Source: Thiohalobacter sp. (GTDB taxonomy: Bacteria; Pseudomonadota; Gammaproteobacteria; Thiohalobacterales; Thiohalobacteraceae). From it: a stretch of 57,645 nucleotides of DNA. The DNA lies in assembly GCF_027000115.1 (NCBI RefSeq), contig NZ_JALTON010000029.1:1-57645 (forward strand), written 5' to 3'. Within the stretch, counting starts at the first letter, position 1, and each line of letters opens with the position of its first letter. This document shows, one piece after another, positions 12,098 through 24,039 of this stretch. A model generated the notes under the pieces. The model was not told where the DNA came from. It was given only the letters and a program-made list of their open reading frames with translations, and did no database searches. The position numbers and the translations under genes were made by a program.

Positions 12098-12570
12098 GGC
12101 GCGCCTCCCCCGGCCGCCTTGCCGTAGAGGAACTGGCCGATGATCTGCTCCAGCACCAGCGCCGACTGGGTGAGCCTGATCTCGTCCCCTTCCTTGAGGA
12201 CCTCGGCCGCGCCGCCGGGTTCCAGCCCGACGTACTGCTCGCCGAGCAGACCGGCGGTGTAGATCTGGGCGGAGGTATCCACGGGAAAGCGGTCATAGCG
12301 CCGGGCGATGGCCAGCGTGACCACCGCCTCGAAGGTCTCGTTGTCGAAGTCGATGGCCGCCACCCGCCCCACGCGCACCCCGGCCACCGACACCGGCGAG
12401 CGGACCTTGAGGCCGCCCACATTGTCGAAGCGGGCGGTCACCCGGTAGGTATCGTTCTCGTCGGCATAGGTGCTCAGGTTGCTGACCTTCATGGCCAGCA
12501 CGAACAGCGCCGCCAGCCCGGCCGCCACGAACAGCCCGACCCCGATTTCCATTATCCTGACTCGTTCCAT
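12094..12570 (-). CDS. mlaD: MCE-domain protein MlaD
   Basis: Hexameric MCE ring that sits on the MlaE permease in the periplasm and contacts MlaC. One N-terminal membrane helix (IMEIGVGLFVAAGLAALFVLA) precedes the MCE domain (VTARFDNVGGLKVRSPVSVAGVRVGRV). The C-terminal helix that closes the pore follows (TQSALVLEQIIGQFLYG). Length 158 is normal. Spacing to mlaE is about 40 bases, with a coupled stop/start to mlaC downstream. Confidence 0.95.
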   Translation of the reverse strand: MERVRIMEIGVGLFVAAGLAALFVLAMKVSNLSTYADENDTYRVTARFDNVGGLKVRSPVSVAGVRVGRVAAIDFDNETFEAVVTLAIARRYDRFPVDTSAQIYTAGLLGEQYVGLEPGGAAEVLKEGDEIRLTQSALVLEQIIGQFLYGKAAGGGAP

Positions 12571-18594: not shown

Positions 18595-19097
18595 ACCCGA
18601 TCCTGCGCATGAAGCCGATCCTGCCCCTGCTCGCCCTGCTGCTGGGCTGGAGCCCGCCGGCGTCGGCGCTGTCGACCGACCGCCAGCAGCCGGCCTACAT
18701 CGAGGCCGACCGGGCGGAGCTCGACGACCGTACCGGTGTCAGCATTTATATCGGCAACGTGCGCATCACCCAGGGCAGCATGCGCCTGACCGCCGACCGC
18801 CTCACGGTGCACAGCGAGGACGGCGAGATCGTCAAGGCCCATGCCGTCGGCAGCCCCGCGACCTTCCGCCAGCGCCCGGACGGCAAGGACACCGACGTCG
18901 AGGCCGAGGCGCTGGAAATGGACTACCTCGCCCGCGAGGGTCGCATCGTGCTCATGAAGAAGGCCGAGGTCCGCCAGGACGGCGACCGCTTCCGCAGCGA
19001 GCGCATCGTCTACGACCTCGAACGCGACCAGGTCAACGCCGGCGGCGGCGGGAATGACCGGGTACGCATTATCCTCCAGCCACGTCAGCAGCCCTGA
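18591..19097 (+). CDS. lptA: LPS periplasmic bridge protein LptA
   Basis: Soluble jellyroll protein that polymerises into the periplasmic bridge between LptC and LptD. A signal peptide ending SPPASA is followed by the OstA_N-type domain with [19 protein letters not shown] and the [18 protein letters not shown] region. The ATG at 18591 overlaps the lptC stop (ATGA); the longer frame upstream lies in another gene. 168 residues; its stop overlaps lptB as TGATG. Confidence 0.94.
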
Positions 19098-19828
19098 TGC
19101 CGATGGCGGGTCTGGTCGCCGATTCCCTGGTCAAGCAGTACCGTGACCGCCGCGTGGTCGACGGGGTGTCGCTGGAGGTCGCGCCCGGCGAGGTGGTCGG
19201 CCTGCTGGGGCCGAACGGGGCCGGCAAGACCACCTGCTTCTACATGATCGTCGGCCTGATCGGCTGCGACGGCGGTCGTATCCTGCTCGATGACCGCGAC
19301 CTCACCGCCGCCCCCATGCATCGGCGCGCCCGCCAGGGACTGGGGTACCTCCCCCAGGAGGCCTCGGTATTTCGCCGCCTGACGGTGCGCGAGAACATCC
19401 TCGCCATCCTCGAGACCCGTCCCGGCCTGGACGCCGCCGCGCGCCGGCGGCGGCTGGAGGAACTGCTGGCCGAACTGCACATCGGCCACCTCGCCGACCA
19501 GCCCGGCATCAGCCTGTCCGGCGGCGAGCGCCGGCGGGTGGAGATCGCCCGCGCCCTGGCCAGCGAACCGCGCTTCATGCTGCTGGACGAGCCCTTCGCC
19601 GGCGTCGATCCCATCTCGGTCGGCGACATACGCGCCATCGTCGCCCACCTGTGCGACCGCGGCATCGGCGTGCTCATCACTGACCACAATGTGCGCGAGA
19701 CGCTGGGCCTGTGCGGCCGCGCCTACATCCTCGGCGAGGGCCGCCTGATCAAGGCCGGCAGCCCGGAGGAAATCCTCGCCGACCAGCGGGTCCGGGAGAT
19801 CTATCTGGGTCAGGACTTCCGGATGTAG
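19097..19828 (+). CDS. lptB: LPS export ABC transporter ATPase LptB
   Basis: Cytoplasmic ATPase of LptB2FGC. It contains Walker [14 protein letters not shown], the Q-loop in [17 protein letters not shown], signature [14 protein letters not shown], Walker [14 protein letters not shown] and switch His in [10 protein letters not shown]. Length 243 is standard. LptF and LptG are not in the window. Translationally coupled to lptA. About 90 bases with regulatory sites separate it from rpoN. Confidence 0.97.
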
Positions 19829-19835
19829 CGGGCAA

Positions 19836-19849
19836 CTGATCCGGATCAA
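19836..19849. promoter_or_regulatory. FNR/Anr-like palindrome upstream of rpoN
   Basis: CTGATCCGGATCAA, read on the minus strand as TTGATCCGGATCAG, matches the FNR/Anr consensus TTGAT-N4-ATCAA at nine of ten positions. It lies 10 bases upstream of the sigma-54-like element and 72 bases before the rpoN ATG. Confidence 0.45.
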
Positions 19850-19858
19850 AAGAATGAC

Positions 19859-19874
19859 TGGCACAATAAATGCT
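19859..19874 (+). promoter_or_regulatory. Sigma-54-type (-24/-12) promoter-like element upstream of rpoN
   Basis: TGGCACAATAAATGCT has the GG and GC dinucleotides at exactly the spacing of the sigma-54 consensus TGGCAC-N5-TTGCW, with one mismatch (A for T before TGC). A transcript would start near 19885, about 36 bases before the rpoN ATG. A TATAGG just downstream could instead serve as a weak sigma-70 -10. Confidence 0.45.
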
Positions 19875-19920
19875 ATAGGGGTAAATTGGCAGTCATGAAC
19901 AGGGCTTCCAGCGACCACCG

Positions 19921-21390
19921 ATGAAGCAGTCGATCCAGCTCAAGCTCGGCCAGCACCTCACCATGACGCCGCAGCTGCAGCAGGCCATCCGGCTGTTGCA
20001 GCTGTCCACCGTGGAACTGCAGCTGGAGATCCAGCAGGCGCTGGAATCCAACCTCATGCTCGAGGTCGCCGAGAGCGAGACCACGGAAACCGAGGCGGAA
20101 ACCACCGCTGAAGACACCCAGGAGGCACCTGCCGAGAAGGCCGAGACCGAGCAGGAACTCAACACCGCCGACGACCAGATCCCCGACGACCTGCCGGTGG
20201 ACACCGGCTGGGACGACATCTACGACTCCGGCAGCACCAGCTACAGTGCGCCGGCCGGGGACGACGACCGCGATTTCTTCGAGACCCACAACGCCGGGGG
20301 GGAAACCCTGCAGGAACACCTGCGCTGGCAGATGGAGCTCACCCCCTTCAGCGACACCGACCAGGCCGTTGCGGATGCCATCATCGACGCCATCAATGAC
20401 GACGGCTACCTGACCCTGCCGCTGGAGGAGATCCACCAGGGACTACTGGAAAGCTTTCCCGAACTGGAGCTGGACGAGGTGGAGGCCGTGCTGCACCGGG
20501 TGCAGCAGTTCGACCCCATCGGCGTTGGCGCCCGTGATCCCGGCGAGTGCCTGGCCCTGCAACTGCGCCAGATGCCGGAGGACACGCCCTGGCGCGATGC
20601 CGCACTGACCCTGGTGGAACAGCATCTGGACCTGCTCGGCGGCCGTGACTTCAACCAGCTCATGCGGCGCATGAAGCTGTCGCAGGAGGAGCTGCAGCAG
20701 GTCATCGCCCTGATCCAGGGACTCAATCCCCGCCCCGGCTCGCAGATCTCGCCCAGCAATGCGCAGTACGTGATTCCCGACGTGTTCGTCACCAAGCGCA
20801 ACGGCGTGTGGCGGGTGGATCTCAACCCGGAGGCGGCGCCGCGGCTGCGCATCAACGCGCAGTATGCCGGGATGGTCAAGCGCGCCGACAACAGTGCCGA
20901 CAACAACTACCTGCGCAACCACCTGCAGGAGGCCCGCTGGTTTCTCAAGAGTCTGCAGAGCCGCAACGAGACCCTGCTCAAGGTGGCGCGCTGCATCGTC
21001 GAGCGCCAGCGCGCCTTCTTCGACTATGGAGAGGAGGCCATGAAGCCGCTGGTATTGCGCGATGTCGCCGAGGCGGTGGAAATGCACGAATCCACCATCT
21101 CCCGCGTCACCACCCAGAAATACATGCACACTCCCCGGGGCATCTTCGAGTTCAAGTACTTCTTCTCGAGCCACGTGGGCACGGCCGACGGGGGAGAATG
21201 CTCCGCCACGGCCATCCGCGCGATGATCAAGAAACTGGTCGCCGCGGAAAACCCGGCCAAGCCGCTCAGCGACAGCAAGATCGCCGATTTGCTGGCGAAG
21301 GAAGGCATCAAGGTGGCACGCCGCACCATTGCCAAGTATCGCGAAGCCCTGGCCATTCCACCCTCCAACGAACGCAAACGCCTTGCATGA
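19921..21390 (+). CDS. rpoN: RNA polymerase sigma-54 factor
   Basis: Alternative sigma factor that binds -24/-12 promoters and needs enhancer-binding ATPases. Region I is the glutamine/leucine-rich [23 protein letters not shown]. An acidic region II (about 55-120) follows, then the core-binding domain and the HTH in [19 protein letters not shown]. The C-terminal RpoN box reads [10 protein letters not shown]. 489 residues. The lptB-rpoN-hpf-ptsN order matches other gammaproteobacteria. Confidence 0.97.
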
Positions 21391-21412: not shown

Positions 21413-21736
21413 ATGCAGATCATACTCACCGGGCACCATGTCGACATCACCCAGCCGCTGCGTGACTACGTCAACGAAAAGATGAAGCGCCTGGAACGCC
21501 ATTTCGACCATGTCACCGACGTTCACGTGGTCCTCAGCGTCGAGAAGCTTCGCCACAAGGCCGAGGCCACCATGCACCTCGCCGGCAACGACCTGTTCGC
21601 CGACCACACCGAGGAAGACATGTACGCCGCCATCGACAGCCTGGTCGACAAGCTCGACCGTCAGCTCAAGAAACACAAGGAAAAGCTCAAGGACCATCAT
21701 CGCGGCGAGGCGCCGCTCAAGCACCAGGAAACCTGA
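21413..21736 (+). CDS. hpf: Ribosome hibernation promoting factor, short form
   Basis: Binds the 30S decoding region in stationary phase and promotes 100S dimers. The 107-residue product has the beta-alpha-beta HPF fold (MQIILTGHHVDITQPLRDYV, then KHKEKLKDHHRG at the basic end) and lacks the long-form C-terminal dimerisation domain. An AAGGAGTGG ribosome-binding site precedes the ATG at 21413. It follows rpoN by 22 bases. Confidence 0.95.
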   Translation: MQIILTGHHVDITQPLRDYVNEKMKRLERHFDHVTDVHVVLSVEKLRHKAEATMHLAGNDLFADHTEEDMYAAIDSLVDKLDRQLKKHKEKLKDHHRGEAPLKHQET

Positions 21737-21764: not shown

Positions 21765-22238
21765 GTGACCGACATTGTCGATATCATCACGCCCGACCGC
21801 GTCGCCTGCGGTGTCGAGGCAGGCAGCAAGAAACGCGCGCTGGAACTGCTCAGTGAACGACTGGCCAGCGCCGCCCCGGACCTCACGACCGAGGAAATCT
21901 TCGAAGCCCTGCTGGCACGGGAACGACTGGGCAGCACCGGCATGGGGGAAGGCGTCGCCCTCCCCCATGGCCGTCTCGATGGCATCAGCAAGCCCATTGC
22001 CGCCTGCATCACACTGCGCGAGCCGGTCGACTTCGATGCCCTGGACAAGCGCCCCGTCGACCTGCTGTTCGCGCTTTTGGTTCCCGAAGCGGCCACGGAG
22101 GAACATCTTCGGCTGCTCGCCCAGCTCGCCCAGATGTTCGGCAAACCGGAATTCCGTGCCGAACTGCGCGCCTGCCACGACAGCGCCGATCTGATGGAAG
22201 CCATCCGACGCGGACAGCCTCAGCGCGTCAGCGCATGA
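21765..22238 (+). CDS. ptsN: PTS-Ntr EIIA component
   Basis: EIIA of the nitrogen-type PTS, a regulator that is phosphorylated on histidine and controls targets such as potassium transport and stress pathways. The phosphorylation site is in GEGVALPHGRLDGI (His68 when counted from GTG 21765). The GTG start (VTDIVDIITPDRV) is chosen because the upstream part of the frame overlaps hpf. The ATGA overlap with hprK couples the two. Confidence 0.94.
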   Translation: MTDIVDIITPDRVACGVEAGSKKRALELLSERLASAAPDLTTEEIFEALLARERLGSTGMGEGVALPHGRLDGISKPIAACITLREPVDFDALDKRPVDLLFALLVPEAATEEHLRLLAQLAQMFGKPEFRAELRACHDSADLMEAIRRGQPQRVSA

Positions 22239-23188
22239 CCAGCGCACCCTTCAGTCCGGCCGAACTGCATGGCACGCTGGGCGAAAGGCTGGCACTGAGC
22301 TGGATTGCAGGTCGGGGTGGAGGGGATCGCCCGATCCGTTTCCAGCCCGGTAGCGACCCGGCCGCCAGTTCGCTCATCGGTCATCTGAACTTCATCCACA
22401 CCCATCGCATCCAGACCATCGGCGCCACCGAACTGCAGTATCTGGAAAACCTGGATCCCGTGTTCCGCGAGGAAGCCATCGGGATGCTGTTTTCCACCAA
22501 CACCGACGCCATCATCGTCGCCGACGGCGTGACGCCGCCGGATGACATCATCGCCCGCGCCGATGCCAGCGACATCCCGTTGTTCACCACGCCCTGGCCC
22601 ACGCACGAGGTCATCAACCACCTGCAGTACTTCTATGCCCATCATTACTCGGAGCGGGTTACGCTGCATGGCGTCTATCTCGAGGTCATGGGCATCGGCG
22701 TCCTCATCACCGGCGACCCGGCAATCGGCAAGAGCGAACTGGCACTGGAACTCATCAACCGCGGCCACCGGCTGATTGCCGACGACTCACCGGAATTTGC
22801 ACGCGTGGCGCCCGACCTGATCGCGGGCAGCTGCCCGGCGGTGCTCAAGGACTTCCTGGAGGTACGCGGGCTCGGCATTCTCAACATCCGCGCCATGTTC
22901 GGTGACAATGCCATCAAGGATACCAAGTACCTGCGACTGATCATTCGCCTGGCCCAGTTCAGTGACGAGGAACTCGCAGCGATCGACCGCCTCGCAGGCG
23001 AACGCCGCAGCCGTGACATCCTTGGGGTAGCAGTCCCCGAGGTCACGGTACCGGTCGCACCCGGCCGCAACCTCGCGGTGCTGGTGGAGGCCGCGGCGCG
23101 CAACCATATTCTGCTGATGAGCGGCTACGACGCCGGCGCCGATTTCATCACCCGCCAGCGCCAGCACATCGAGAACGGCGGCGCATGA
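22235..23188 (+). CDS. hprK: HPr kinase/phosphorylase
   Basis: Bifunctional enzyme that phosphorylates HPr on Ser46 and removes the phosphate. The N-terminal domain (1-125) is followed by the catalytic domain with P-loop GDPAIGKSELALELINRGH (160-178) and the family signature EVRGLGILNIRAMFG. The P-loop reads G-D-P-A-I-G-K-S, whereas the usual form as I recall it is G-x-S-G-x-G-K-S, a small deviation. Enterobacteria lack hprK. Here it sits between ptsN and rapZ, with overlapping stop/start codons on both sides. Its substrate HPr, two genes on, keeps Ser46. Confidence 0.93.
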   Translation: MTSAPFSPAELHGTLGERLALSWIAGRGGGDRPIRFQPGSDPAASSLIGHLNFIHTHRIQTIGATELQYLENLDPVFREEAIGMLFSTNTDAIIVADGVTPPDDIIARADASDIPLFTTPWPTHEVINHLQYFYAHHYSERVTLHGVYLEVMGIGVLITGDPAIGKSELALELINRGHRLIADDSPEFARVAPDLIAGSCPAVLKDFLEVRGLGILNIRAMFGDNAIKDTKYLRLIIRLAQFSDEELAAIDRLAGERRSRDILGVAVPEVTVPVAPGRNLAVLVEAAARNHILLMSGYDAGADFITRQRQHIENGGA

Positions 23189-24039
23189 AACTGGTCATCG
23201 TCAGCGGCCTGTCGGGCTCCGGCAAGAGCATAGCACTCAACACCCTCGAGGATCTGGGCTACTACTGCGTGGACAACCTGCCCGTCGGCCTGCTGGCGCC
23301 ATTTGCCGCCCAGCTCCACGCTTCGCTGCATCCCAGCCAGGAACTGGCCGCCGTGGGCATCGATGCCCGCAACCACCCCGAGGACCTGCAGCGCTTCCGC
23401 GACATCCTGCGTGAGCTGGGTGACAATATCGATGTCGAGGTCATCTTCCTGCAGGCCGATGACGAAACCCTGCTCAAGCGTTTCAGCGAAACCCGTCGCC
23501 GCCATCCCCTCACCGGGGAAGGTGTCTCTCTGGCCGACGCCATCCGCCGCGAGCGCGATCTGCTGGAACCCATCTCCGCCAGCGCCGCCCTGCACATCGA
23601 CACCACCCACACCAACGTCCACCAGCTGCGTGATCTCGTTCAGGAACGCGTGGCCGGCGAGGCCAGCGGGCGCCTCTCCCTGCTGTTCAAGTCCTTCGGC
23701 TTCAAGCATGGCGTGCCGGAGGACGCCGACTTCGTGTTCGACGTCCGCTGCCTGCCGAATCCCCACTGGGAAGCCCACCTGCGCCCACTCACCGGCCGCG
23801 ATGCGGCCGTGGCGGAATATCTCGAAACCCAGCCGGGCGTGGAACGGATGTTCGAGCAGATCCGGGATTTCCTGGTCGAGTGGATCCCGCAGTTCGAACG
23901 CGAGAAACGCCGCTACCTGACCGTCGCCATGGGCTGCACGGGCGGACAGCACCGTTCCGTCTATCTTGCCGAAAGGCTGGGCAAGTACTTCGCGAGCCGC
24001 TATCCTTCCGTGCTGGTCAGACACCGCGAACTCTCATGA
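23185..24039 (+). CDS. rapZ: RNase adapter protein RapZ
   Basis: RapZ is a P-loop protein that, in E. coli, senses glucosamine-6-phosphate and delivers the sRNA GlmZ to RNase E. Walker A is SGLSGSGKSIALNTLEDLGY; the C-terminal domain has MGCTGGQHRSVYLAERLG. Length 284 is standard. Whether GlmZ-type RNAs exist here is not visible. ATGA overlaps with hprK upstream and the EIIA gene downstream. Confidence 0.95.
   Translation: MKLVIVSGLSGSGKSIALNTLEDLGYYCVDNLPVGLLAPFAAQLHASLHPSQELAAVGIDARNHPEDLQRFRDILRELGDNIDVEVIFLQADDETLLKRFSETRRRHPLTGEGVSLADAIRRERDLLEPISASAALHIDTTHTNVHQLRDLVQERVAGEASGRLSLLFKSFGFKHGVPEDADFVFDVRCLPNPHWEAHLRPLTGRDAAVAEYLETQPGVERMFEQIRDFLVEWIPQFEREKRRYLTVAMGCTGGQHRSVYLAERLGKYFASRYPSVLVRHRELS

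Follow-up and report, generated by a model that had tools for sequence, protein, structure and literature searches.

We present an analysis of the 92-bp gap between lptB and rpoN in a gammaproteobacterial genome and propose that the rpoN operon has its promoter in this gap and that the -24/-12 element found there is a binding site for the sigma-54 holoenzyme kept by selection, most likely for negative autoregulation (a reading to which we give a probability of roughly 0.6). The element is found in all gaps examined from the family of the genome and in many gaps outside it, where it generally overlaps a hexamer resembling the -10 box of sigma-70 promoters. Of the by-products of the work, the most interesting is the apparent fusion, over many families, of sigma-54 and sigma-70 signals in a fixed register at rpoN.

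Background

The pool of core RNA polymerase is limited and contested by sigma-54 and sigma-70, and the setting of the sigma-54 level is therefore of consequence to nitrogen, flagellar, and PTS control. A conserved fused promoter at rpoN would, if our reading is true, constitute a simple and testable feedback that needs the sigma factor alone. It would also mean that the sigma-54-type sites reported upstream of rpoN in genome surveys are not automatically activated promoters.

Methods

The rpoN loci were collected from three sources, namely 56 relatives, GTDB contigs (the best 80 of 295), and 274 genomes of the class. The resulting 231 loci yielded 217 gaps that are distinct in their last 120 bp; lptB was placed at most 500 bp away in 202 of these, and for the others the scan covered 200 bp. 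The class sample was drawn from the better rpoN matches (100 places plus automatic loci, out of 224 genomes with a match), rpoN matches without the N-terminus were mostly left out, and the rates obtained are rates within this sample and not class-wide frequencies. The family of the window comprises 11 genomes, one of which (G007, in which rpoN is incomplete at the edge of a contig) was excluded, leaving 10 gaps. At one locus (L010) the lptB stop was set too early, so that the scan took in the lptB tail (225 bp instead of 86 bp).

The flank tables hold 63 rows, one of the 64 positive gaps having been dropped for a missing flank, and the counts of 39 and 40 gaps with the composite pattern given below differ through different length filters. 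The placement of matches in the shifted control was compared by eye with the list of rpoN matches. Synonymous conservation of lptB was computed from 17 sequences, 7 of them from outside the family.

Results

The rpoN locus

The window, i.e., the whole stretch of 57,645 nucleotides that was analysed, sits in a gammaproteobacterial genome of 2.65 Mb (G000). Among the rpoN matches listed (the best 80 of 295 GTDB contigs), the closest named relatives include Thiohalobacter and Thiogranum MAGs. The features relevant to this study are as follows.

19097-19828, plus strand: lptB, the upstream gene (TIGR04406, 372.9 bits, cut-off 240)
19829-19920, plus strand: lptB-rpoN gap of 92 bp, proposed to hold the promoter (lptB stop at 19828, rpoN ATG at 19921)
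19836-19849, no strand assigned: FNR/Anr-like box CTGATCCGGATCAA, 9 of 10 positions of TTGATNNNNATCAA
19858-19863, plus strand: possible sigma-70 -35 box CTGGCA, 4 of 6, weak; coincides with the -24 box, 18-base spacer
19859-19874, plus strand: putative sigma-54 -24/-12 element TGGCACAATAAATGCT, with GG at 19860-19861 and GC at 19872-19873
19882-19887, plus strand: possible sigma-70 -10 box TAAATT, 4 of 6; the family conserves this position, with the consensus TARANT
19921-21390, plus strand: rpoN, sigma-54, intact, with the AID, CBD, and DBD domains all found
21413-21736, plus strand: hpf, ribosome hibernation promoting factor (TIGR00741, 116 bits, cut-off 40.9)
21765-22238, plus strand: ptsN, EIIA-Ntr (TIGR01419, 145.1 bits, cut-off 138.7)
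22235-23188, same strand as rpoN: hprK, HPr kinase/phosphatase (TIGR00679, 328.8 bits)

The next frame (23185-24039) we take to be rapZ, judging from its sequence and position. The order on the same strand after rpoN is thus hpf, ptsN, hprK, rapZ, and then more PTS genes, of which HPr was the one checked. Profile matches bear out the gene content that a sequence-only reading of this DNA had assigned downstream of rpoN, and any control exerted in the gap would consequently extend to hpf and the PTS genes. Within the rpoN operon, hprK is flanked by ptsN and rapZ; according to the available part of a 2026 review, hprK is missing from most non-alpha proteobacteria (PMC13104625). In one family member (locus L005 of genome G004, represented by a single contig) an in-frame TAA interrupts rpoN towards its end, ahead of the RpoN box, and the remaining frame is intact; either the sequence is in error or the gene is broken.

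Motif matches in the gap

As the sequence-only reading had claimed, both an FNR-like and a -24/-12 motif are found in the lptB-rpoN gap, the latter with exact GG-GC spacing; the distance between them is nine bases rather than the ten it had given. The -24/-12 element scores 11 of 12 against TGGCAYRNNNNTTGCW, has the exact GG-N10-GC arrangement, and carries C at position -12 (C19873). The FNR-like box includes a perfect 12-bp palindrome, TGATCCGGATCA, at 19837-19848. Each motif is the sole match in the window at its stringency. At the same stringencies, dinucleotide shuffles yield 1.61 sigma-54-like and 0.35 FNR-like matches per window by chance, and bare motif matching therefore has no significance for either site, in line with the earlier warning that two such short sites could be chance matches. 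Since the motifs alone do not exceed chance, conservation is needed to decide. In its own genome the pattern TGGCAYRNNNNWTGCW has 13 matches, which translates to 0.0005 expected per 92 bp, and there are 49 FNR-like sites matching at least 9 of 10 positions, or 0.0017 per 92 bp.

Conservation of the sigma-54 element

Of the 217 distinct gaps sampled, 64 carry, on the coding strand, an element matching at least 11 of 12 positions with the fixed GG-GC spacing, compared to a mean of 0.25 of 217 in 20 dinucleotide shuffles. The positive gaps are spread over at least 24 family codes, including that of the window, related sequences among them not being independent. In the window family the element occurs in 10 of 10 gaps, and its specified positions are invariant except for the last W (T in nine, A in one). 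Loss of the GG-GC spacing in relatives had been named as evidence that would speak against the site; the spacing is retained in every family gap. The sequence before the element and well after it carries little information, and conservation outside the element is confined to the -10-like region beside it. Invariant positions amid variable flanks, together with the count of 64 gaps against the shuffled expectation, indicate that the -24/-12 element is a real, conserved sigma-54 site under selection, as far as sequence comparison can tell.

No element with at least 10 of 12 matches was found in 141 of the 217 gaps, nor is there an element in the 47-bp lptB-rpoN gap of E. coli K-12, which is why the device is not universal. 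E. coli K-12 was considered as a model and dropped because its gap lacks the element. On the minus strand, elements matching at least 11 of 12 positions occur in 8 of the 217 gaps, although shuffled gaps (scored on the plus strand) average 0.25; in three of the loci (L021, L086, and L178) the start codon of rpoN is 10-11 bases away from such a minus-strand site.

A -10-like hexamer next to the element

Of 53 gaps from outside the window family, 39 have a -10-like hexamer (TAGAAT, TATAAT, and TAAAAT being examples that resemble the sigma-70 -10 box) that starts exactly one base past the end of the element, whereas base-shuffled tails have a hexamer at that offset in 1.6 gaps on average and in 7 of 53 at most. 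When a single gap per family is counted, the hexamer is found at the fixed offset in 15 of 23 families. The composite pattern TGGCAYRNNNNWTGCNNTANANT has 40 matches in the 274 class genomes; 19 are located directly upstream of rpoN, 16 elsewhere, and 5 are without a listed rpoN place. A control pattern with the hexamer shifted by 3 bases has 22 matches in the same genomes, with 15 elsewhere, none at rpoN, 4 for which the rpoN place is not listed, and 3 in genomes without an rpoN match. The composite thus appears to be largely specific to rpoN, and the control implies that sigma-54-like sites elsewhere have no special preference for this offset. The class set was used because a slightly stricter composite had too few matches among the 56 relatives (3, of which 2 at rpoN). 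The sequence TGC-N2-TANAAT is also kept in 11 of the 141 gaps without a sigma-54 element (0.5 in shuffles), as one would predict were the sigma-70 part the underlying promoter.

In the window family the hexamer, with consensus TARANT, is found 7-8 bases past the element, i.e., 6-7 bases beyond the common offset, and nine of the ten gaps have, at one of these two offsets, a hexamer with at least 4 of 6 matches to TATAAT. The candidate sigma-70 promoter in the window is weak, matching 8 of 12 consensus positions, and a consensus scan of the region, which needs 9 of 12, reported no sigma-70 promoter. No clear -35 signal was found at any spacing in the 40 composite gaps from relatives outside the family, so that the sigma-70 promoter is put forward as a hypothesis. 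Comparison of the gaps thus makes a good case for the sigma-70 part among relatives and does no more than hint at it in the window.

Discussion

Mechanism and alternatives

The element, its conservation, and its overlap with a -10-like hexamer in relatives are directly observed in the gaps, and we infer from them the binding of sigma-54 polymerase, its mutual exclusion with sigma-70 polymerase, and a repressive sign. Under the proposed mechanism, the sigma-54 form of RNA polymerase would make a closed complex on the element, unable to begin transcription unless an activator is present, and while bound it would shut sigma-70 polymerase out of the overlapping housekeeping promoter. Two polymerase forms cannot share overlapping sites, and such an arrangement placed at rpoN would amount to negative feedback, holding sigma-54, and with it the products of the downstream hpf-ptsN genes, within a set level. 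Counting against occlusion in the window itself, the hexamer is off the common offset and matches 4 of 6 positions, accompanied by a -35 box that also matches 4 of 6.

The sequence-only reading had instead proposed a positive loop, in which sigma-54 and an enhancer-binding protein raise expression of rpoN and the PTS genes from an activator-driven sigma-54 promoter. The sigma-54 site of that proposal is borne out by its conserved spacing; the positive sign is doubtful. A near-consensus element with exact spacing is what an activated promoter would have, and the genome encodes, besides sigma-54, ten strong enhancer-binding proteins in a family search, so activation is possible, a point against the repressive reading. 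On the other hand, a co-located -10-like hexamer would be unexpected if sigma-54 were the sole driver. A search for an enhancer by way of synonymous conservation in lptB found none at its 3' end, where the final 37 codons score 0.40-0.48 and belong to the least conserved stretches of the gene, a weak argument given that enhancers can be distant. The overlapping conserved hexamer and the failure to see a conserved enhancer in lptB are the reasons why we regard repression as more likely than activation at rpoN and the positive loop as unlikely. The element also includes a GCA-N7-TGC inverted repeat, which could mark it as the operator of another DNA-binding protein instead of a sigma-54 site. 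A dyad, however, would keep both ends conserved, whereas 62 of 63 sequences have the T that opens the element and the mirror positions 16-17 are free to vary outside the family; the asymmetric TGGCAYR-N4-WTGC is the sigma-54 consensus, and we consider an operator of this kind very unlikely. The C at -12 occurs in 63 of 63 rows of the flank table, but the search demanded GC, so that this base is informative in the window alone. That the element is a functionless chance match, as the shuffled expectation per window might suggest, is contradicted by its invariance in ten family gaps with variable flanks and by its frequency among the 217 gaps, and its probability is close to negligible.

Autorepression could be part of a broader picture that we offer tentatively, as possible rather than probable: a fused rpoN promoter present in many Gammaproteobacteria, re-phased in the window family, with an Fnr box added in this lineage. 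An old -24/-12 element and a sigma-70 -10 box would be locked in one register, such that sigma-54 and sigma-70 polymerases compete for nearly the same start and sigma-54 sets its own level with no dedicated repressor. The window family would have retained the sigma-54 part and shifted the phase of the sigma-70 box, the -24 box serving as a -35 box as well, and the Fnr box would link the set point to oxygen.

Relation to known systems

The idea that rpoN is autoregulated is sound and already known in kind. Pseudomonas rpoN presumably has the same operon neighbours as the gene studied here, and Kohler et al. reportedly described in 1994 that rpoN of P. putida is autoregulated, with a negative effect. 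A mechanistic parallel comes from E. coli, where, according to the part of the report available, sigma-54 polymerase represses sigma-70 promoters that it overlaps, always with C at -12 (PMC4551910). The promoter discussed here resembles those class I/II repressed promoters in having its -24/-12 element within a candidate sigma-70 footprint and C at -12, and differs from them in that the target is rpoN itself, that relatives keep one register, and that the repression is predicted. Excerpts from other studies report a ChIP-seq signal of RpoN upstream of rpoN in P. aeruginosa (PMC8855297), which resembles the binding upstream of its own gene that is predicted from sequence here, and cite negative autoregulation of rpoN1 in Rhizobium etli (PMC3916325). 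The likeness in the latter case is that sigma-54 lowers expression of its own gene, there under aerobic growth; the difference is that R. etli is an alphaproteobacterium with two rpoN genes. In a 2025 computational survey (PMC12316311), predicted sigma-54 promoters show enrichment in front of rpoN both in gamma-Proteobacteria and in further classes, "implying autoregulation", which is the same observation at the survey level; the accessible part of its text makes no mention of a sigma-70 overlap at rpoN or of the sign of control. The accessible parts of five further papers (PMC2725144, PMC4641369, PMC2937029, PMC8577284, and PMC4591121) contain no statement on rpoN autoregulation, and literature searches covering open-licence papers did not find a fixed sigma-54/sigma-70 register at rpoN.

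The FNR-like box and possible oxygen control

Binding of Fnr at 19836-19849, tuning rpoN by oxygen, would be compatible with either sign of the sigma-54 effect. The response of rpoN and the PTS genes to oxygen that the sequence-only reading had suggested finds no support in conservation, none of the other 9 family gaps having a box with at least 9 of 10 matches (the best match 4-8 of 10). The box is one of 49 such sites in the genome, most of the 15 inspected falling within open frames, and 0.35 matches are expected by chance in the window. It is centred 42.5 bases ahead of the sigma-54 start predicted at 19885 and 51.5 bases ahead of the sigma-70 start predicted, off the only conserved -10-like hexamer, at 19894; neither is known as a standard activating position. 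In favour of oxygen control are the palindromic 9 of 10 box in the gap itself, a true Fnr encoded in the genome (NF008365, 299.7 bits, cut-off 228, with CX2CX5C and one more Cys), and a modest excess of FNR-like boxes among the distinct gaps (8 of 217 versus 1.6 in shuffles, maximum 5), three of which, from different lineages, have the common core GATCCGGAT. Considering both sides, the box looks like a local or chance feature that probably lies outside the conserved device, and oxygen control through it is doubtful; given the presence of fnr and of the GATCCGGAT core in other lineages, a lineage-specific role of FNR may still exist. A different oxygen regulator, ArcA, binds the rpoN promoter region in Plesiomonas, as stated in the available part of the report (PMC8489083).

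FNR-like boxes upstream of rpoN were also seen at loci L015, L067, and L011, two of them with the GATCCGGAT core of the window, and the gap of L011 has a perfect TTGAT-N4-ATCAA. In the genome of the window, a perfect FNR box, TTGATCCCGATCAA, lies just upstream of the fnr gene (contig C30 of G000, 12484-12497), which suggests autoregulation of Fnr.
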